A DNA stretch of 33,094 nt from positions 1 through 33,094 of the forward strand of contig WLNY01000014.1 of the NCBI GenBank assembly GCA_009699575.1, in the 5' to 3' direction. The position numbers and the translations under genes were made by a program. Positions 5,711 to 16,412 of the stretch are shown one piece after another; position 1 is the stretch's first letter, and the number at the start of each line of letters is the position of its first letter. This DNA is from Actinomycetota bacterium. Its GTDB lineage: Bacteria; Actinomycetota; Actinomycetes; Nanopelagicales; Nanopelagicaceae. A model generated the notes under the pieces. It saw only the letters and a list, made by a program, of their open reading frames with translations, searched no databases and was not told the origin of the DNA.

Positions 5711-8698
5711 ATGACACTGATTATCGAACCTGATTTGGGAACTCCAGCGAGTGAGAAGACCGAAATTGTTACGGTGGAAATCGATGGTACTTCGATCCAA
5801 GTACCAGCTGATACTTCCATCATGCGCGCTGCCGCACTCTGTGGAATAGACATTCCAAAACTGTGTGCAACTGATTCTCTAAAGGCTTTTGGTTCATGCC
5901 GACTCTGCGTTGTTGAAATCGATGGCCGCAATGGCACACCCTCATCGTGCACCACTCCTGTGGCGGATGCAATGAAAGTTTCGACACAGACCCCTCGCGT
6001 GAAGAAGCTGCGCGAAGGAATCATGGAACTCTACATGTCAGATCACCCGGCAACCTGCGCCACAGGTGATGAGTGCGAAATGCATTCGATGGCCCAAAAA
6101 GTTGGACTCACTGAGGTTCGCTATGACGGTCGTACTCACTTAGATATTAAAAAAGATGAATCAAATCCTTATTTCACATTTGATTCCACTGAGTGCATCG
6201 TGTGCAATAGATGCGTTCGCGCGTGTGATGAAGTACAAGGTACATTTGCATTGACGATTGAAAACCGCGGTTTTGAGGCGCGCGTGTCATCATCGGGTAC
6301 CTCATTTCTAGAATCTGAATGCGTATCGTGCGGAGCGTGTGTTCAAGCATGCCCAACAGGCGCCCTGACGGAAAAAACTCTTCTAACAATCGGCGCACCG
6401 ACTCGATCAGTGATTACAACATGCGCGTATTGCGGAGTGGGTTGTTCGTTTAAAGCTGAGATGCGCGGAGATGAATTGGTTCGCATGGTGCCTTACAAAG
6501 AAGGTGGCGCTAATGAAGGCCACTCATGCGTGAAGGGTCGATTTGCCTGGGGATATGCAACGCATACAGACCGCCAACTCTCCCCAATGATTCGCGAGAA
6601 TATTTCTGATGCGTGGAAAAAAGTGTCATGGGAAGAAGCAATTTCCTTCGCTGCCTCGGGACTAAAAAAGATTCAAAATGAGTCAGGTGTTGATGCCATA
6701 GGTGGAATCACATCCTCTCGATGCACAAACGAAGAAGTTTTCGTAGTTCAGAAAATGATTCGAGCAGCGTTTGGAAATAACAATGTTGATACCTGCGCGC
6801 GCGTGTGCCACTCTCCAACGGGATACGGACTGAGTAAAACATTTGGCACATCTGCCGGAACCCAAGATTTCGAATCAGTGGAGTACGCCGATGTCATTAT
6901 GGTTATTGGTGCTAATCCAGCAGCGGCCCATCCAGTCTTTAACTCACGCATGAAACAAGCGATTCGCCGTGGGGCTAAGTTGATAGTTATTGATCCGCGT
7001 GTGACAGAAACGGTGAAGTCTGCGCATGTAGAAGCTGATTATCATCTACAACTCCTCCCCGGAACCAATGTTGCAGTCATCAACGCACTCGCTCACGTTA
7101 TTGCAATGGAAAATCTCATTGATAGAGAATTCGTGAACGCGCGATGTGACCTTGAATCATTTGCGCAATGGGAAGAATTTATCCGTTTGCCAGAAAATAG
7201 TCCTGAATTCCTCGAGGCGCAGACTCGTGTTCCAGCTGAGGAGATCCGCGCTGCAGCACGATTATTTGCTGCTGCCCCAAATGGCGCGATCTACTATGGA
7301 CTAGGTGTCACCGAACACAGCCAAGGTTCAACAATGGTGATGGGTATTGCAAACCTTGCGATGGCCACAGGAAATATTGGACGCAAAGGCGTTGGAGTTA
7401 ATCCATTGCGCGGGCAAAATAACGTTCAAGGCTCATGTGACATGGGATCATTCCCACACGAACTTCCTGGGTATAGGCACATCTCTCGCGATGATGTTCG
7501 AGATATCTTTAATAAAAAATGGGGAGTTACATTGCGCCCAGAGCCTGGCCTTCGGATACCGAACATGTTTGATAGCGCACTTGGTGGAAAATTTCGCGGA
7601 CTTTACGTGCAAGGTGAAGATATTGCGCAATCAGATCCAAACACCACGCACGTCCATGCTGCCTTGCGCGCGATGGATATGGTGATTGTGCAGGATCTTT
7701 TCCTTAATGAAACATCTAAGTTTGCGCATGTGTTCCTCCCAGGTACTTCATTTTTGGAAAAAGATGGAACATTTACTAACGCAGAAAGACGCATCAATCG
7801 TGTTCGTCCGCTGATGCCATCAAAGACTGGAAAGAGCGAATGGGAAGTCACCTGCGATCTAGCCCAGGCAATGGGTTATGAGATGGGTTATGAAAATTCT
7901 GCGCAGATCATGGATGAAATTGCCGCCACAACTCCTACATTCGCCGGCGTATCATTCGCTCGACTTGATGAGTTGGGAAGTATGCAGTGGCCAGTCAATA
8001 AAAAAGCGCCCAACGGCACACCAACAATGCACGTAAGTGAATTCGTGCGCGGTGAAGGTAAATTTATGCAAACCAAATACGTAGCTACTGATGAGAAATC
8101 TAATCGTAAGTTTCCACTACTTCTCACAACTGGTCGCATTTTGAGCCAGTACAACGTGGGCGCCCAGACACGTCGTACTGAGAATGTGAGATGGCACAGT
8201 GAAGATATTTTGGATATTCACGAGTCAGATGCTGCGATGCGCGGAATTGCAGATGGTTCGTGGGTCAAACTCTCCAGTCGAGTAGGCGAGACGATTATGC
8301 ACGCACGTATTACAGATAGCGTTCCTGCTGGAGTCGTCTATACAACTTTTCATTTCCCTGAATCTGGAGCGAACGTCATCACCACAGATCTCTCCGATTG
8401 GGCGACAAATTGTCCAGAGTACAAAGTGACAGCCGTGGAAATCTCTCCGAGTTCGAAAGGGCCAGGAACGATTGCCGAACATGACATTGCAGGAGATAGC
8501 CAACTTGATTCGATTATTCGAATGGCCAATCAAATTGCTGCAAATATTCCCGCATCTGGCGCTCCCGAATTAGAAATTGCGCACCACATTGTTCAATTCT
8601 GGACTCCAGAAATGCGTCATCGCTTACACACCGATGTAGATAAATCCTTGCTTAATCCCGTTGTTCTTAAGGCAATGGAGCTTGAATCAGTTCAGTAG
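5711..8698 (+). CDS. fdsA: Formate dehydrogenase catalytic alpha subunit (Mo/W-bis-MGD), with C-terminal FdsD-like module
   Basis: This 995-residue enzyme oxidises formate to CO2. Domains in order: a [2Fe-2S] ferredoxin with C52, C63, C66 and C80; a reduced His-Cys site with H112, C116 and C122; two [4Fe-4S] clusters at C162/C165/C168/C172 and C204/C207/C210/C214; the catalytic-domain [4Fe-4S] at C238/C241/C245/C273; and the bis-MGD molybdopterin domains. The metal ligand is cysteine, not selenocysteine, in CARVCHSP (C366, then H367). The last ~60 residues (from about 935) resemble the separate delta subunit FdsD (MANQIA..., FWTPEMR..., LNPVVLKAM), so the two appear fused. The His-Cys site lacks one of the three cysteines usual in NuoG-like H-x3-C-x2-C-x5-C. 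The start is the ATG after GGAGAA. The 3' end overlaps the convergent DUF1638 gene by 12 bases. Confidence 0.95.
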   Translation: MTLIIEPDLGTPASEKTEIVTVEIDGTSIQVPADTSIMRAAALCGIDIPKLCATDSLKAFGSCRLCVVEIDGRNGTPSSCTTPVADAMKVSTQTPRVKKLREGIMELYMSDHPATCATGDECEMHSMAQKVGLTEVRYDGRTHLDIKKDESNPYFTFDSTECIVCNRCVRACDEVQGTFALTIENRGFEARVSSSGTSFLESECVSCGACVQACPTGALTEKTLLTIGAPTRSVITTCAYCGVGCSFKAEMRGDELVRMVPYKEGGANEGHSCVKGRFAWGYATHTDRQLSPMIRENISDAWKKVSWEEAISFAASGLKKIQNESGVDAIGGITSSRCTNEEVFVVQKMIRAAFGNNNVDTCARVCHSPTGYGLSKTFGTSAGTQDFESVEYADVIMVIGANPAAAHPVFNSRMKQAIRRGAKLIVIDPRVTETVKSAHVEADYHLQLLPGTNVAVINALAHVIAMENLIDREFVNARCDLESFAQWEEFIRLPENSPEFLEAQTRVPAEEIRAAARLFAAAPNGAIYYGLGVTEHSQGSTMVMGIANLAMATGNIGRKGVGVNPLRGQNNVQGSCDMGSFPHELPGYRHISRDDVRDIFNKKWGVTLRPEPGLRIPNMFDSALGGKFRGLYVQGEDIAQSDPNTTHVHAALRAMDMVIVQDLFLNETSKFAHVFLPGTSFLEKDGTFTNAERRINRVRPLMPSKTGKSEWEVTCDLAQAMGYEMGYENSAQIMDEIAATTPTFAGVSFARLDELGSMQWPVNKKAPNGTPTMHVSEFVRGEGKFMQTKYVATDEKSNRKFPLLLTTGRILSQYNVGAQTRRTENVRWHSEDILDIHESDAAMRGIADGSWVKLSSRVGETIMHARITDSVPAGVVYTTFHFPESGANVITTDLSDWATNCPEYKVTAVEISPSSKGPGTIAEHDIAGDSQLDSIIRMANQIAANIPASGAPELEIAHHIVQFWTPEMRHRLHTDVDKSLLNPVVLKAMELESVQ

Positions 8699-9268
8699 TT
8701 CGAGAATTTGTTTCTCTAGAACCGATTCGCCAACGATTCGAATTTCAAGGGGTAGGGCTATCTGCTCAGCTGCGTGACGCGCAAGTATCTCAAGTTCGGC
8801 AGTTGGATTCTGAGCGAGCCAGATTATTCGGTTGTAGTGAGCGAAATAGTCATCACGTAATTCTGGGTAACGATCTAGTCCTAGTTCGACAATGACGCTT
8901 CGCTGAAAAGATTTCACTAAAAAATCTGTGAGAAAGTACGTTCCGGCATCGGATTCCATAATCGTAGCAATCTCTTTTTCGCCAGCAAAAATGTCGTAAC
9001 AGTGGTTACCGCCTAGTCGTTTAACGCCATGAGCAGACACGATTTCATCGAGCGCCCCATAGGTTCCACAATCTGCATAGGCAACTGCAAATTTCTCATG
9101 TTTGCCGGCAAGAGAAATCAAGAGTTGCTCAACCTCGCCAGCAATTTTTGTAGGTTGATTGTGAAGGAGCGGTGGTAGAGGATAAATAGTGATATCGAGA
9201 TTGTTTGCCTTTTGAACTGATGCGATATGTGTGGCTATGGCACCACAGGCAATAACACCAACAGACAT
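8687..9268 (-). CDS. DUF1638 family protein of unknown function, last gene of the corrinoid operon
   Basis: This 193-residue soluble protein has the DUF1638 pattern: an N-terminal GVIACGA, a central Y-A-D-C-G-T-Y-G-A-L-D and a G-G-N-H-C-Y-D-I-F-A-G block. Cys8, Cys67 and Cys90, with His14, His36 and His89, are candidate metal or cofactor ligands, but this is only a pattern reading. No signal peptide or membrane segment is seen. The ATG at 9268 lies four bases after the RACo stop; an upstream in-frame ATG at 9298 would overlap RACo by 26 bases. Family members are, as far as I recall, commonly found next to MttB-like methyltransferases and RACo. A role in corrinoid handling or methyltransfer is therefore likely but unproven. 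It ends inside fdsA on the opposite strand. Confidence 0.8.
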   Translation of the reverse strand: MSVGVIACGAIATHIASVQKANNLDITIYPLPPLLHNQPTKIAGEVEQLLISLAGKHEKFAVAYADCGTYGALDEIVSAHGVKRLGGNHCYDIFAGEKEIATIMESDAGTYFLTDFLVKSFQRSVIVELGLDRYPELRDDYFAHYNRIIWLAQNPTAELEILARHAAEQIALPLEIRIVGESVLEKQILELLN

Positions 9269-9272
9269 GTCT

Positions 9273-11177
9273 CTACACCGGGAAACTAAGGCGTTCAACG
9301 AATCGATCGTTAAAGTCTGATCGATCGGAGAGTTCTATGTAATCAATCTCGTCAAGAAGTGCGTTGGCACCATTTCGCTCTTGCGCTGAGAGTAAAACCA
9401 TTTTTGCACCTTCACCTGCGACATTTCCTGCAGAGACGATACGCATTACAGGAAGTTTAGGAACGAGCCCAATTTTCACTGCAGATGCGGGGGAGAGGTA
9501 AGAACCAAAGGATCCAGCCAACAGCACCTGTTGGATTTCACTTTCAGCGACGCCAAATTCCTCTAGTAGTAACGCCCATCCAGTTGCAATCGCAGCTTTA
9601 GCGAACTGTAATTCACGGACATCTCGCTGAGTGAGAAATACGCAGTCAGAAAGATCTCCCACTTCGCGACTCCACGTAAGCACAAAGACTCTCTCGCCTT
9701 CGCGTTCAACAAGTCGATTAGCCAACAGTGGAGAAATTTCTTTGGCTTTCTCTTCGCTGACAAATCGCCCCGAATGATCAAGGAGTCCTAATTGCACAAG
9801 ACACGCACACGCATCGACGAGTCCAGAGCCGCATATGCCAATGGCTTTTGTGTCATCAATGGTTCCAATGACCAAATCGCCATCTACGATTTTAATTGTT
9901 TCGATGGCTCCCGAAGCAGCGCGCACTCCACATTTAATAGAAGCTGCTTCAAAGGCCGGGCCGGCAGGCGCCGCTGTTGCTAATATTTTTTCACCATCAC
10001 CTAAAATGATTTCGCAATTTGTTCCCACATCAATAAAGAGGCGAAGGCGTTTATCTCGATCCATTCCCGAAGCAAGTGCTCCGGCAACGATGTCGCCCCC
10101 AACGTAAGCGCCAAGTGAAGGCATGATGACTGCCTTTGCACGTGGGTGTATCGCAAGACCGAGTTCGGATGCTTGAACATCTGGATAACTAGCACTTGCC
10201 ATAATAAATGGTGCAACACCTAGTGGTTCTGGATCAATACCAAGGAGCAGTTGAGTCATGGTTGCATTTCCAGCAAGTGCAACCTCATAGACATGCAGTG
10301 GATTAATTCCTGCTTCTTCACACACTTCAGCGGTGAGTTCACCCAGTGTTTGTTGTGCGAGTCCGCGTAGGCGATCCAAAGCGGTTACATCCATCATGGT
10401 TGCACTAATGCGGGTAATCACATCTGCGCCAAAGGGTTGTTGCTTATTGAGCATAGATTTCACAGCTACAGGTGTTCCAGAATTGAGGTCAAGGAGAGTG
10501 GCAACCACAGTGGTGGTCCCTAAGTCATAGGCAATTCCGTAACGAATTTCGGTTGTATCGCCGGGTTCAACATCAATGAGTTCCTGATCGACAAATACAG
10601 CGGTGACTTTGAAATACGAGGCTCTAAGAACTTTACCGATACTGCGCATCGCATCAAGTGAGACGGTTGCTTCGATATCGTCAATGGCATCGAGAAGGCG
10701 AACAACGTCTGTGCGCTGATCATGCAACGTTGGGTCTTCTAGTTCGACATAACGTTTTTGGACTGCAGGGCGCAAAATAACTTGGCGCCCAACCCCCACT
10801 GTTGCAGCTTTGGGACGAGTAGTCATTGGCGGTACGTCTATTGAAATATCTTTTGAGGTGCGAATCAAGCAGGCAAGTCTCCAACCCTCTTTGATTTCAC
10901 TCTCTGTAAATGCTCGGTAATCCAATTTGGAGGCTTCGACATCACCGCTTGAAATTTTCACTCGACATTTCTTGCACGTTCCATACCCGCCACATGTTGA
11001 ATCAATGGCAACGCCATTCCAGGAAGCAGCATCAAATGCACTGACACCTGTTGGAACGGCGACCGGCTTTTCTGATGCCAGGGTGCCATCCTTTTCAAGG
11101 ATGCGAAAAGTTAACTTAACTCGCCCTGTGCCATCATGGACAGGTACAAGCGAGGGATCGAGAGGTTTCTTACTAAT
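9273..11177 (-). CDS. Reductive activator of corrinoid protein (RACo-like, ferredoxin + ASKHA domains), predicted ATT start
   Basis: RACo uses ATP and a [2Fe-2S] cluster to return oxidised Co(II) corrinoid to the active Co(I) state. Residues 20-105 form a ferredoxin with C62-x5-C68-x2-C71 (CGGYGTCKKC) and C103 (GWRLAC). About residues 200-620 are the DUF4445/ASKHA ATPase-like domain, with YDLGTTTVVATL, DVGTNCEI, GICGSGLVDA and AGSFGSYL. No ATG, GTG or TTG occurs in frame between the preceding TAA at 11181-11183 and the ferredoxin. The first such codon is a GTG at 10959-10961, inside the [2Fe-2S] motif. An ATT at 11175-11177, six bases after AAGGA, is the best start and gives 634 residues, a normal length. 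ATC at 11178-11180 or a base error are alternatives. The gene is coupled to the upstream methyltransferase and downstream DUF1638 gene. Confidence 0.88.
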   Translation of the reverse strand: MSKKPLDPSLVPVHDGTGRVKLTFRILEKDGTLASEKPVAVPTGVSAFDAASWNGVAIDSTCGGYGTCKKCRVKISSGDVEASKLDYRAFTESEIKEGWRLACLIRTSKDISIDVPPMTTRPKAATVGVGRQVILRPAVQKRYVELEDPTLHDQRTDVVRLLDAIDDIEATVSLDAMRSIGKVLRASYFKVTAVFVDQELIDVEPGDTTEIRYGIAYDLGTTTVVATLLDLNSGTPVAVKSMLNKQQPFGADVITRISATMMDVTALDRLRGLAQQTLGELTAEVCEEAGINPLHVYEVALAGNATMTQLLLGIDPEPLGVAPFIMASASYPDVQASELGLAIHPRAKAVIMPSLGAYVGGDIVAGALASGMDRDKRLRLFIDVGTNCEIILGDGEKILATAAPAGPAFEAASIKCGVRAASGAIETIKIVDGDLVIGTIDDTKAIGICGSGLVDACACLVQLGLLDHSGRFVSEEKAKEISPLLANRLVEREGERVFVLTWSREVGDLSDCVFLTQRDVRELQFAKAAIATGWALLLEEFGVAESEIQQVLLAGSFGSYLSPASAVKIGLVPKLPVMRIVSAGNVAGEGAKMVLLSAQERNGANALLDEIDYIELSDRSDFNDRFVERLSFPV

Positions 11178-11189
11178 GATTTATCCTTC
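11175..11189 (-). promoter_or_regulatory. Shine-Dalgarno and rare ATT start for RACo
   Basis: On the minus strand GAAGGA (11184-11189) overlaps the last codons of the methyltransferase. It is followed by TAA, ATC and ATT. AAGGA to ATT leaves a six-base spacer, ideal for initiation, while ATC would leave three. The region up to the ferredoxin cysteines contains no standard start codon in this frame, which is why this site decides the start. A termination-reinitiation coupling at the adjacent TAA would fit. Non-AUG starts of this kind are known (infC uses AUU) but uncommon. Confidence 0.5.
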
Positions 11190-12044
11190 GTTCTTTGCAG
11201 CTTCTTGCGCACGGTAACGTGCAATCCAATTGCCACCCCATGGATCAAGGCCTAATAGTAGGTCTGCAGCTCGCACTGCCTCGTTAATTGCAGGTGTGCG
11301 CGCGTCCATGACGGCGCACGTTAATCCATGTGACATCGCAGATGGCAAGAATGCTGCGTTGAGAGCATGGCGATTAGGAAGACCAAAGGAGATGTTGGAT
11401 GCTCCGAGGGTCATGTTTAGTCCCCATTTTTCGCGGATTAAATGAATTGTCTCCAAGGTAATTTTTACCGCTTCTGGATCTGCGCCAACTGTCATAGCAA
11501 GTGGATCGATTACCAATTTATCCATAGAGATTCCATGCTTTTCAACAGTTCGAATAATTTTTTCAGTGATAACCATGCGCTCAGCAGCCGTTGCTGGGAT
11601 TCCAGTCTCATCGTTGGGAAGAGCAATAATCGCAGCGTTATGTTTTTTAATCAGCGGCAAAATAATTTCCATTCGATCATCTTCGCCAGTCATAGAATTG
11701 ACGAGAGCAACACCTTCATATGCCTCAAGTCCTGCCTGAAGCGCTTCAATGACTGAAGAATCAATACAAATAGGCAAGTCTGTAATTGTTTGAATCATCT
11801 TTATGGCTTTTGCAAGCAGTGCTGGCTCATCAGTAAGAGGAACACCCATATTGACATCGAGCATGTCTGCGCCACCTTTAACCTGCGCCTCAACATCTAT
11901 CGCGATTGTTGAGAGGTCACCTGCTCGCAAGAGCTCCTGAAATTTCTTTCGCCCTGTCGGGTTAATGCGCTCACCAATAATACAAAAGGGTTGATCGTGA
12001 CCAATAGTGACGCTCTTTGATGCTGATTGAACGACTGTATGCAT
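11181..12044 (-). CDS. Methyl-tetrahydrofolate:corrinoid protein methyltransferase (pterin-binding, MtgA/AcsE-like)
   Basis: This 287-residue protein has a DHPS/pterin-binding TIM barrel. Visible family blocks are IGERINPTGRKKF (about 24-36), the acidic D-V-N-M-G-V-P strand, P-I-C-I-D-S-S, N-S-M-T-G-E, and L-G-A-S-N-I-S-F-G-L-P-N-R near the C-terminus. These match MeTr enzymes of acetogens and MtgA of glycine betaine demethylation rather than folate-synthesis DHPS. It would move the methyl group from methyl-Co(III) corrinoid protein to THF. It lies between metF (27 bases upstream) and RACo, in the same operon as the corrinoid protein. The ATG at 12044 is the only good start; GGGAG lies somewhat far upstream (about 12 bases). 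Confidence 0.9.
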   Translation of the reverse strand: MHTVVQSASKSVTIGHDQPFCIIGERINPTGRKKFQELLRAGDLSTIAIDVEAQVKGGADMLDVNMGVPLTDEPALLAKAIKMIQTITDLPICIDSSVIEALQAGLEAYEGVALVNSMTGEDDRMEIILPLIKKHNAAIIALPNDETGIPATAAERMVITEKIIRTVEKHGISMDKLVIDPLAMTVGADPEAVKITLETIHLIREKWGLNMTLGASNISFGLPNRHALNAAFLPSAMSHGLTCAVMDARTPAINEAVRAADLLLGLDPWGGNWIARYRAQEAAKNEG

Positions 12045-12974: not shown

Positions 12975-13360
12975 TACTCGCCGCTTTGGTCTTCTTGGCG
13001 CTTTGCCCAACCGGCCGGAGTTTGCTGATCTCGCTTAGTAATGAGATTTATCCATGATGACGTATCTTTAAGTTGCATATCAACTGGCGGACGCAAATCG
13101 TTGTAATGCTCTTTCCATACCTTAGGCAAAGGCAAAGAAACCGTGCGGTCGTAGGCTTTTACCCACACACATTGCATTTCAGGTTTTACTTCACAATGGC
13201 CATCTTCGCGAACCCCTCCGCATGGACCATTACGCAGCGTTTTTGGACATGTCATCGGACATGTCATCCCTGTTGAATGCAGAACACATTGACCACACAT
13301 CTTGCAATCCCAAATGGGCTTCTTGATGCCGTGCTCAATGAGGTTAAGTAATTTAGGCAT
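12974..13360 (-). CDS. metV: MetV-type cysteine-rich partner of methylenetetrahydrofolate reductase
   Basis: This small 128-residue protein has eight cysteines in the arrangement C19-x2-C22-x2-C25-x8-C34-x3-C38, then C47 (NGPCGG), C56 and C64. This is the MTHFR C-terminal zinc/Fe-S-binding type domain found as MetV in acetogens and fused to MetF in other bacteria. The start at ATG 13360 (MPKLLNLIEHG) overlaps the corrinoid-protein gene by eight bases. Longer in-frame starts would lie far inside that gene. It presumably forms a complex with MetF and may provide an electron entry or exit point. Which cofactor the cysteines hold cannot be read from the sequence. Confidence 0.88.
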   Translation of the reverse strand: MPKLLNLIEHGIKKPIWDCKMCGQCVLHSTGMTCPMTCPKTLRNGPCGGVREDGHCEVKPEMQCVWVKAYDRTVSLPLPKVWKEHYNDLRPPVDMQLKDTSSWINLITKRDQQTPAGWAKRQEDQSGE

Positions 13361-14018
13361 TGATAAGTGCGCGCTTCTTCTGAATAAGATCTTTCGCAAT
13401 TCGAACAGCGGTAGACGCATCAGCTGCAAACCCATCTGCACCCACAGCGTCTGCATACTCCTGCGTAACAGGTGCGCCACCAACCATGATGATCACCTTG
13501 TCGCGAAGTCCAGCTTTAGTAATCTCGTGAATATTGACCTTGAACATTGGCATAGTTGTTGTGAGAAATGCTGACATTCCCAAGATATCTGGTTCATGTT
13601 CTTGAATAGCTGCAATAAATTTCTCAGGAGATACCTGTACTCCAATGTCGATAACTTTAAAGCCAGCGCCTTCGAGCATGATGTTGACAAGGTTTTTTCC
13701 AATGTCATGTACATCGCCTTTCACAGTTCCCATGAGGAATGTTCCAACTGTCTCTGCTCCAGTTTCAGCAAGGAGTGGACGCAAAATGTTGAGAGCTCCA
13801 GACATCGCTTTACCAGCGATGAGCATCTCGGGAACGAAGTAATCACCGCGCTCAAAACGAGCACCTACTTCTTCCAATGAAGGAATAAGAGCCTCAAACA
13901 AGATCATGTCTGGGCCCATGCCAGCGGCAAGTCCAGCATTGGTGAGTTCGAGAACTGCTGGTGCATTTCCAATCATCGTCTCATCAAAGAGAGCCTTAAT
14001 GATTTCATCATGTGTCAT
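13353..14018 (-). CDS. Corrinoid (B12-binding) methyl carrier protein, MtbC/MtgC-like
   Basis: This 221-residue protein has the two-domain layout of dimethylamine/trimethylamine corrinoid proteins. An N-terminal four-helix cap (about 1-90, including R-F-E-R-G-D-Y-F-V-P-E-M) precedes a Rossmann cobalamin domain. The cobalt-ligating motif D-x-H-x-x-G is D102-V-H104-D-I-G107 (KGDVHDIGKN). The supporting S-A-F-L-T-T-T and V-G-G-A-P-V segments follow. It would accept a methyl group from the MttB homologue encoded on the divergent strand and donate it to the pterin methyltransferase in the same operon. The start overlaps the IclR gene stop (ATGA) and the end overlaps metV by eight bases. Confidence 0.94.
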   Translation of the reverse strand: MTHDEIIKALFDETMIGNAPAVLELTNAGLAAGMGPDMILFEALIPSLEEVGARFERGDYFVPEMLIAGKAMSGALNILRPLLAETGAETVGTFLMGTVKGDVHDIGKNLVNIMLEGAGFKVIDIGVQVSPEKFIAAIQEHEPDILGMSAFLTTTMPMFKVNIHEITKAGLRDKVIIMVGGAPVTQEYADAVGADGFAADASTAVRIAKDLIQKKRALINA

Positions 14019-14917: not shown

Positions 14918-14940
14918 TTGATTGAAGGCAGTTCCATAAT
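14918..14940 (+). promoter_or_regulatory. Possible promoter -10 of the mttB operon with an overlapping operator half-site
   Basis: CATAAT at 14935-14940 resembles a -10 box. A lone GTTCCA half-site (14931-14936) overlaps it, matching the half-sites of the main operator. No convincing -35 is seen at normal spacing, though regulated promoters often lack one. This 160-base divergent intergenic region (14816-14975) contains no gene. Confidence 0.3.
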
Positions 14941-14975
14941 TGAGGGTTTTTCATCCACACCTGGAGGTACACACA

Positions 14976-16412
14976 GTGTTTCTTAACAAGATGCCGCGCT
15001 ATGAAATATTAAGCGAACAATCGATGGCAACCCTAAATGCTGGGTGGCGAAGAATCGTTTCAGAAATCGGCATCGAGTACATGTCACCATGGGCTCTAGA
15101 TATGTTGCGTGAAGCGGGACAAGAAGTCTCTGGCGATAACGTGAAATTTGATCCTGATTGGATCATGACTCAAGTTGCAAAAGCACCGCGCGAATTTGAT
15201 CTTCGTGCACGAAATCCAAAGAACAACGTACATATCGGTGGGGATGCAATGGTCTTCGGCGGCGTATATGGCCCACCCTTTGTTCGCGAAGGTGATGTAA
15301 GGCGCGATGGAACATTTAATGATTTTGAGAATTTTTGCAAGCTTTCACAATCCTTTGACGCACTTGACTCAGTAGGTGGCGTTGTCACAGAACCAAATGA
15401 TCTCTCACTTGATTCACGTCACCTTGATATGGCATTTGCTGCAGCAACTTTGACTGATAAGTTCTTTATGGGCAACGTCGTGACAGATGTCAATGCCCGC
15501 GATGTCATCCACATTGCAGAAATTTTGCACGGTGGCCGAGCAGCTATTGAAGAAGTACCAGCGCTCATTTCCCTTATTAACTGCAACTCACCTCTGCGCT
15601 GGGATGATCGCATGCTTGATTCCATGCGCGAATATGCACTCGCCGGACAACCAGTTGTCTTTACTCCATTCCTTCTTATGGGCGCTATGAGTCCAGTAAC
15701 AATTCCTGCCACATTGGCGCAACAAATGGCTGAAGCGCTTTCAGGAATCGCGCTCGCTCAATTAATTAGACCCGGAACACCTGTTGTTTTTGGTTCGTTC
15801 CTTTCTAATATTGATATGCAATCAGGGTCCCCACAATTTGGAACTCCTGAATCAGGCATTGGACTTCTCTGTACTGGCCAAATTGCCCGCAGTCTCAACC
15901 TTCCGTTTCGTGGAGGCGGCGGCTTAAATTCATCACAGACAGTTGATGCGCAATCGGCCTATCAAACAATGATGACCATGATGCCAACATTTCTTGCCGG
16001 CACTAACTGGGTAATGCATACAGCTGGATGGCTCGAAGGTGGACTTGTATCTTCCTACGATAAGTTCGTTGTTGATATTGAAATCCTGCAATCACTCATG
16101 GCTGAATTCACTCCACTTGAATTTAACGAAGATTCATTGGCCTTTGATGCTCATCTAGAAGTTGGTCATGGAGGCCACTTCCTTGGCGCAGCTCACACAA
16201 TGGAACGCTTTCGCGATTGTTTCTACCGACCATTTCTTACCAACAGCGATAACTACGAACGGTGGAATCGCCTAGGTGCAAAAGATACTCGCGCACGTGC
16301 GGAAGAAATTTGGAAAAAGAAGTTAGCTGAATACGAAAAGCCTGAGATGGATGCGGCAATTCTTGAAGAGTTGACCGATTTCGTAGCAAAACGTAAGAGC
16401 GAACTCGACTAA
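14976..16412 (+). CDS. MttB-family (non-pyrrolysine) methylamine/betaine:corrinoid methyltransferase, glycine betaine candidate
   Basis: This 478-residue protein is of the trimethylamine methyltransferase (MttB) superfamily. The N-terminus has the typical L-N-A-G-W-R-R-I-V-S-E-I-G-I-E-Y segment. The barrel core has F-R-G-G-G-G-L-N-S-S-Q-T-V-D-A-Q-S-A-Y-Q, and the C-terminus has EVGHGGHFLGAAHTMERFR. No in-frame amber codon occurs, so it is a Pyl-less homologue like MtgB, which demethylates glycine betaine. The start is GTG at 14976, eight bases after GGAGG (14963-14967); an ATG at 14991 is too far from this site. It heads an operon with betaine aldehyde dehydrogenase and a betaine-type transporter, and the partner corrinoid protein is encoded divergently. 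Glycine betaine is the best guess; proline betaine or carnitine cannot be excluded from sequence. Confidence 0.9.
   Translation: MFLNKMPRYEILSEQSMATLNAGWRRIVSEIGIEYMSPWALDMLREAGQEVSGDNVKFDPDWIMTQVAKAPREFDLRARNPKNNVHIGGDAMVFGGVYGPPFVREGDVRRDGTFNDFENFCKLSQSFDALDSVGGVVTEPNDLSLDSRHLDMAFAAATLTDKFFMGNVVTDVNARDVIHIAEILHGGRAAIEEVPALISLINCNSPLRWDDRMLDSMREYALAGQPVVFTPFLLMGAMSPVTIPATLAQQMAEALSGIALAQLIRPGTPVVFGSFLSNIDMQSGSPQFGTPESGIGLLCTGQIARSLNLPFRGGGGLNSSQTVDAQSAYQTMMTMMPTFLAGTNWVMHTAGWLEGGLVSSYDKFVVDIEILQSLMAEFTPLEFNEDSLAFDAHLEVGHGGHFLGAAHTMERFRDCFYRPFLTNSDNYERWNRLGAKDTRARAEEIWKKKLAEYEKPEMDAAILEELTDFVAKRKSELD

Follow-up and report, generated by a model that had tools for sequence, protein, structure and literature searches.

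Conservation of an AUU/AUC start codon predicted for the redox activator RACo in Nanopelagicaceae, with a probable role in low expression

The RACo locus

The window, that is, the whole stretch of DNA that was analysed, comprises 33,094 nt from a genome of the Nanopelagicaceae, a family of common freshwater bacteria, and carries on its minus strand a gene for RACo (reductive activator of corrinoid proteins), a repair protein of a vitamin-B12 enzyme (Table 1). The gene was assigned by its domains, a [2Fe-2S] ferredoxin domain, a linker, and middle and C-terminal ASKHA domains being found in this order, with Pfam matches above cut-off (PF00111, PF17650, PF17651 and PF14574; Fer2, RACo_linker, RACo_middle and RACo_C_ter). 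PDB entry 3zyy (IRON-SULFUR CLUSTER BINDING PROTEIN), which we take to be Carboxydothermus RACo, matched residues 36–630 (E 1.1e-95) and, compared at the protein level, has the same domain order and cluster cysteines; the best NCBIfam match was AcsV (NF040756) with 427 bits, below its cut-off of 800. Genes for a corrinoid protein and a methyltransferase (mtgA in the following) lie with RACo in a cluster that also holds MetF-like genes, and the MtgC-like corrinoid protein is, as predicted from the cluster, likely to be the client of RACo, whose expected activity would be the ATP-dependent reduction of a Co(II) corrinoid protein.

The DUF1638 gene, to which no function was assigned, adjoins RACo in 37 loci, and its ATG starts have almost no Shine-Dalgarno (SD) sequence (mean SD energy −0.16, n=37). 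An MttB-family gene at window positions 14940–16412 (TIGR02369 match below cut-off) is followed by transporter-like genes; it is an open frame with no in-frame TAG and is thus apparently without pyrrolysine.

Table 1. Features of the RACo region, in window coordinates.
Feature	Position	Strand	Remarks
ATT, predicted initiation codon of RACo	11175..11177	-	sole well placed candidate after GAAGGA; relatives; onset of coding conservation
RACo coding sequence	9273..11177	-	634 codons from ATT; stop TAG 9275-9273
GAAGGA, SD-like	11184..11189	-	6 nt before ATT; within 3' end of upstream gene
TAA of upstream methyltransferase gene	11181..11183	-	3 nt before ATT; closes RACo frame too
GTG, first in-frame canonical codon	10959..10961	-	rejected as start; after three cluster cysteines
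Pterin-binding corrinoid methyltransferase gene (MtgA-type, label given here)	11181..12044	-	ATG start; PF00809; NF005719 above its cut-off
DUF1638 gene downstream of RACo	8687..9268	-	ATG start; PF07796; control gene
Corrinoid protein, MtgC-like	13353..14018	-	PF02310/PF02607; best NCBIfam match MtgC NF047996, below its cut-off

In the RACo frame the TAA (11183-11181) is followed by ATC (11180-11178), ATT (11177-11175) and then AGT AAG AAA CCT, and the first in-frame ATG, GTG or TTG after it is GTG 10961-10959. A preliminary description of this DNA had claimed that no ATG, GTG or TTG lies between the TAA and the [2Fe-2S] motif, that ATT is the well placed codon after GAAGGA and that a start at the GTG would remove three cluster cysteines; all of this was borne out on reading the frame and its translation, the spacing from GAAGGA to ATT being 6 nt and the GTG lying downstream of three of the cysteines, which sit in CGGYGTCKKC. 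The in-frame ATC also follows the TAA; in relatives its place varies freely (ATC, ACC, GTC, CTC, CGC or AAA), and the codon after it is ATT, ATC or ATG.

The start codon across relatives

RACo was present in 47 of 135 genomes of the genus and, at E 1e-30, in 68 of 296 genomes of the order, with a readable 5' end in 64 of these 68 (the window's own genome included throughout). The codon at the start place was ATT in 42, ATC in 14 and ATG in two of the 58 aligned loci, the window among them; ATT/ATC was thus found in 56 of the 58, which are also 56 of the 64 genomes with a readable 5' end, a recurrence beyond chance. In the remaining six of the 64, TTG is apparently used (L045, L050, which lack the segment) or ATG stands elsewhere (four genus g40 loci with a shorter N-terminus), both as judged by eye. 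Outside the 58 were these shifted loci (L045 and L050 with TTG, L069–L072 with ATG) and G009 (L003), G113 (L067), G044 and G104 (5' end off contig); a second fragment, L030 (ATT there too), and a RACo paralog, L074, were not counted. The paralog (G167:C6) is a second, 38%-identical RACo in one genome.

Starts were picked by an Ile/Met/Val-then-small-residue rule against an [HN]DG anchor, by which the invariance of HDG is partly built in. When the codon 13 before HDG was read with no motif rule, it was ATT in 40, ATC in 14 and ATG in one of 62 loci, the other seven being one cut locus, L035/L037 and L068 (different spacing), and L045, L050 and L069.

No ATG, GTG or TTG was present from the in-frame stop to HDG in 33 of the 58 loci (25 ATT, 8 ATC), namely the window and 32 others, and none from eight codons upstream to HDG in 39 of 58. 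The 25 loci with some canonical codon in the stop-to-HDG stretch comprise, with overlaps, five ATT loci with such a codon within nine codons upstream (ATG at −2 in L015 and L036, TTG at −2 in L053, GTG at −3 in L008, ATG at −9 in L039), six AUU/AUC loci with one 15–27 codons upstream (L010, L017, L046, L051, L064, L065), 16 loci with one at codons 9–12 (GTG 13, ATG 3) and the two ATG loci. Since a canonical codon is present in those loci, a canonical start is possible there. The ATG two codons above ATT in L015 and L036 overlaps the mtgA stop as ATGA, a possible return to a canonical start. AUU/AUC is not indispensable, because L057 and L068 have ATG instead and TTG serves in L045 and L050. 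Among distant RACo loci (L136–L194), a canonical codon lies 36–95 codons above the first cluster cysteine in 55 of 55 tested, and judged by sequence a canonical start is possible in them.

Conservation and Shine-Dalgarno support at the codon

In the 55 loci with standard HDG spacing, coding conservation begins at the predicted start codon: its bases 1 and 2 are invariant, codon −1 varies, and the residues after the start are mostly S-K-K-E-L-D-P with freer third positions. Residue 2 is Ser, Ala or Thr in 54 of the 55, and TGR after HDG is kept in 54–55. A small second residue fits removal of the initiator Met. The stop-to-start gap between mtgA and RACo was 1–4 nt in 54 of 58 loci (full range −8 to 39 nt).

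The anti-SD duplex energy averaged −5.6 kcal/mol at the 58 starts and −1.7 at control codons within RACo, some 10% of the controls reaching the median of the starts; the value in the window was −4.8. Among the 58, SD pairing is weakest in the two loci with ATG (n=2). The 16S tail GGATCACCTCCTT was found in G014, G015 and G308 and was not found in the draft window genome (G000).

Evolution of the codon

A tree of 64 rows was built on portions of RACo and mtgA, and changes were counted by parsimony. It required ten start-state changes: seven switches of ATT to ATC or back, single changes to ATG and to TTG, and a further one at the root versus g40; well-supported branches forced 4–5 for each of ATT and ATC. 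The change to ATG groups L057 with L068, which sits on a long branch. Where the third base of the start codon changed from T or C, it stayed T/C in 7 of 8 changes; for 26 fourfold sites of RACo the figure was 90 of 251 (binomial P 0.004, approximate because the counts are parsimony counts). Two invariant internal Ile columns behaved similarly to the start codon (T-to-C 12, T-to-A 4, A-to-C 1), so the test shows constraint but cannot alone distinguish a start codon from a decoded Ile codon; the two are told apart by the ATG at the same place together with the junction geometry. As internal Ile codons of RACo are ATA in 6.5% of cases (113/1739), the absence of ATA at the start is in itself weak evidence.

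Control genes, infC and a wider screen

A canonical codon stood at or near the expected mtgA start in 35 of 35 readable loci (26 cut or partial), and DUF1638 had ATG in all 37 loci in which the gene was found (62 searched). The start of infC, placed by alignment, was ATC in 10 of the 11 family genomes, G053 having GTC, and Streptomyces infC is likewise stated to start at ATC (PMC5472188); in some genomes in-frame canonical codons lie further upstream, for example an ATG nine codons above in G214. Of the infC loci (L098–L105, L095–L097), that of G053 (L101) may be, like sigR, an actinobacterial gene that starts at GTC.

Two complete genomes were screened for coding conservation upstream of the first canonical start; 400 kb (about 30%) of each was covered, in stretches chosen to contain RACo and then infC. 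The 301 frame pairs include spurious frames and are therefore not 301 genes; in 53 of them the alignment extended by at least 8 residues beyond the first canonical start in one frame or both, and the top-ranked of the 53 clustered near an rRNA region or were without third-position excess. At least 8 third-position differences, exceeding those at positions 1–2, were found for infC, RACo and one edge-cut frame (42% identity, 12 codons), and at 70% identity only infC and RACo passed among the 301 pairs. RACo also ranked first in an earlier 200-kb pass (77 pairs).

Proposed mechanism

AUU is almost certainly the true start of RACo in the window. We propose that translation of RACo would begin at AUU, or at AUC in relatives, with the ordinary initiator fMet-tRNA; ribosomes finishing the methyltransferase gene 1–4 nt upstream would be held by the SD sequence inside its 3' end and would re-initiate inefficiently at the near-cognate codon, so that little activator would be present compared with the methyltransferases and corrinoid protein that the cluster also encodes. 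RACo output would probably also depend on IF3, because IF3 discriminates against such codons and infC itself starts with AUC.

Coupled re-initiation is described as requiring overlaps or very short gaps (PMC10666635), and raised IF3 is reported to lower re-initiation in E. coli, the effect being weaker with an SD sequence (PMC2268962). According to PMC5472188, IF3 represses non-canonical starts and Streptomyces sigR with a canonical codon is overproduced; AUU and AUA starts are reported to reduce output in S. aureus (PMC13009471), and corrinoid activation is considered unlikely to be required in each reaction cycle (PMC9768040). From these precedents on re-initiation, IF3, S. aureus and the need for activator we infer a throttle that would keep RACo scarce and would probably be sensitive to IF3. 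The reading in which AUU/AUC is the true start and coupled re-initiation holds RACo low, probably under IF3 discrimination, is given a probability of roughly 0.7. Within it, initiation at AUU in vivo, low output and IF3 dependence are predictions; by analogy it is plausible that the start codon lowers RACo expression, and low or IF3-dependent expression is the likely role of the AUU start. That AUU/AUC has been kept across dozens of species suggests that the cell deliberately makes little RACo.

The family genomes also contain infC with an ATC/GTC start, and RACo and infC may, as a tentative and somewhat doubtful extension, form a small IF3-governed set in Nanopelagicaceae, with AUU/AUC tying B12-dependent one-carbon repair to the balance of IF3 and ribosomes. 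If this were true, initiation stringency would be a regulator of central metabolism in bacteria that rank among the most abundant in fresh water.

Alternative explanations

The AUU/AUC start might be real and merely tolerated, coupled re-initiation having no need of AUG and the codon drifting with no regulatory role. The short gap in nearly all loci and the changes to ATG and TTG that did occur agree with this, whereas the third-base changes are biased against A/G relative to fourfold sites, the DUF1638 and mtgA genes retain canonical starts in every readable case, and L066 has ATC with a 39-nt gap and an AAGGAG site of −7.4 kcal/mol; mere tolerance was judged rather unlikely, and a start held at AUU/AUC to keep RACo low was preferred.

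A shorter protein started internally, at GTG 10961 or at another near-cognate codon, was judged very improbable. That GTG would presumably be chosen by a gene finder limited to ATG, GTG and TTG, and GTG or ATG occurs at codons 9–12 in 16 of 58 loci; however, a start there drops three cluster cysteines, the place holds GTG in just 6 of 62 loci (Ile in 50 of 62), and codons 0–20 appear constrained as protein, with freer third positions. On these three grounds the internal start was set aside. The segment SKKPLDPSLVPVHDGTGR of the predicted protein is the part that separates the AUU start from an internal start.

If readthrough of the stop or a frameshift fused RACo to the upstream methyltransferase, ATT would be an internal Ile codon. 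Such a fusion would suit the shared frame and single TAA of the window genes and a codon that behaves much like Ile, with T or C only. Against it, the upstream stop is spread over the three frames relative to RACo (32, 15 and 11 of 58 loci), the gap varies from −8 to 39 nt, conservation is low across the mtgA–RACo junction, and L057 and L068 have ATG in place of ATT. As stop frame and gap vary, a conserved fusion was set aside as scarcely credible.

A dedicated initiator tRNA with anticodon GAU, which would account for a third base of only U or C at AUU/AUC loci, was regarded as similarly remote and was set aside after a pattern search (GGGCTNATAACCC) of seven genomes, in each of which a CAU initiator tRNA was found, and no GAU form, although the pattern would miss an initiator variant with a different anticodon stem. 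Exactly one site per genome was found in six genus g1/g47 genomes, all CAU; G208 gave two further matches.

A sequencing or assembly error at ATT, for which the draft state of the window genome (49 contigs, 85% completeness) might speak and for which the preliminary description had set the comparison of 5' ends as the test, is refuted to near certainty by the relatives, since ATG occurs in two of the 58 aligned loci and ATT/ATC in all the others, and three single-contig genomes (G014, G015, G106) all carry ATT.

Comparison with known systems

A non-canonical start of RACo, or one in Planktophila, was not found in the titles and abstracts that searches of the open-licence PMC literature listed, and very few non-canonical start codons are said to have been characterised so far (PMC5472188). 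On its predicted start, RACo joins the known genes in which a near-cognate start codon is conserved. As a metabolic redox activator that kept such a start through several AUU/AUC switches, it would offer a natural experiment on how start codons are selected and on control by IF3; in practical terms, a gene finder limited to ATG, GTG and TTG would be expected to truncate the window RACo, with loss of three iron-sulfur cysteines.

The near-cognate AUN start predicted for RACo resembles that of infC in E. coli (AUU) and Streptomyces (AUC), as given in PMC5472188, and in S. aureus (AUA), as given in PMC13009471; infC, however, encodes an autoregulated translation factor, whereas RACo acts as a redox activator in metabolism and follows a closely coupled gene. 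Streptomyces sigR, as described in PMC5472188, is like RACo an actinobacterial gene with a lineage-wide non-canonical start, a good ribosome-binding site and an argument from stoichiometry; unlike RACo it starts at GTC and is the first gene of its pair, RACo being the follower, and the effect of IF3 was measured for sigR and is inferred for RACo. In S. aureus, cvfC1 (AUU) and ccpN (AUA) are reported to combine conserved non-canonical starts with a strong SD sequence and lower output (PMC13009471); they were established by ribosome profiling and reporters and belong to unrelated genes and another phylum, whereas the start of RACo is predicted from sequence.
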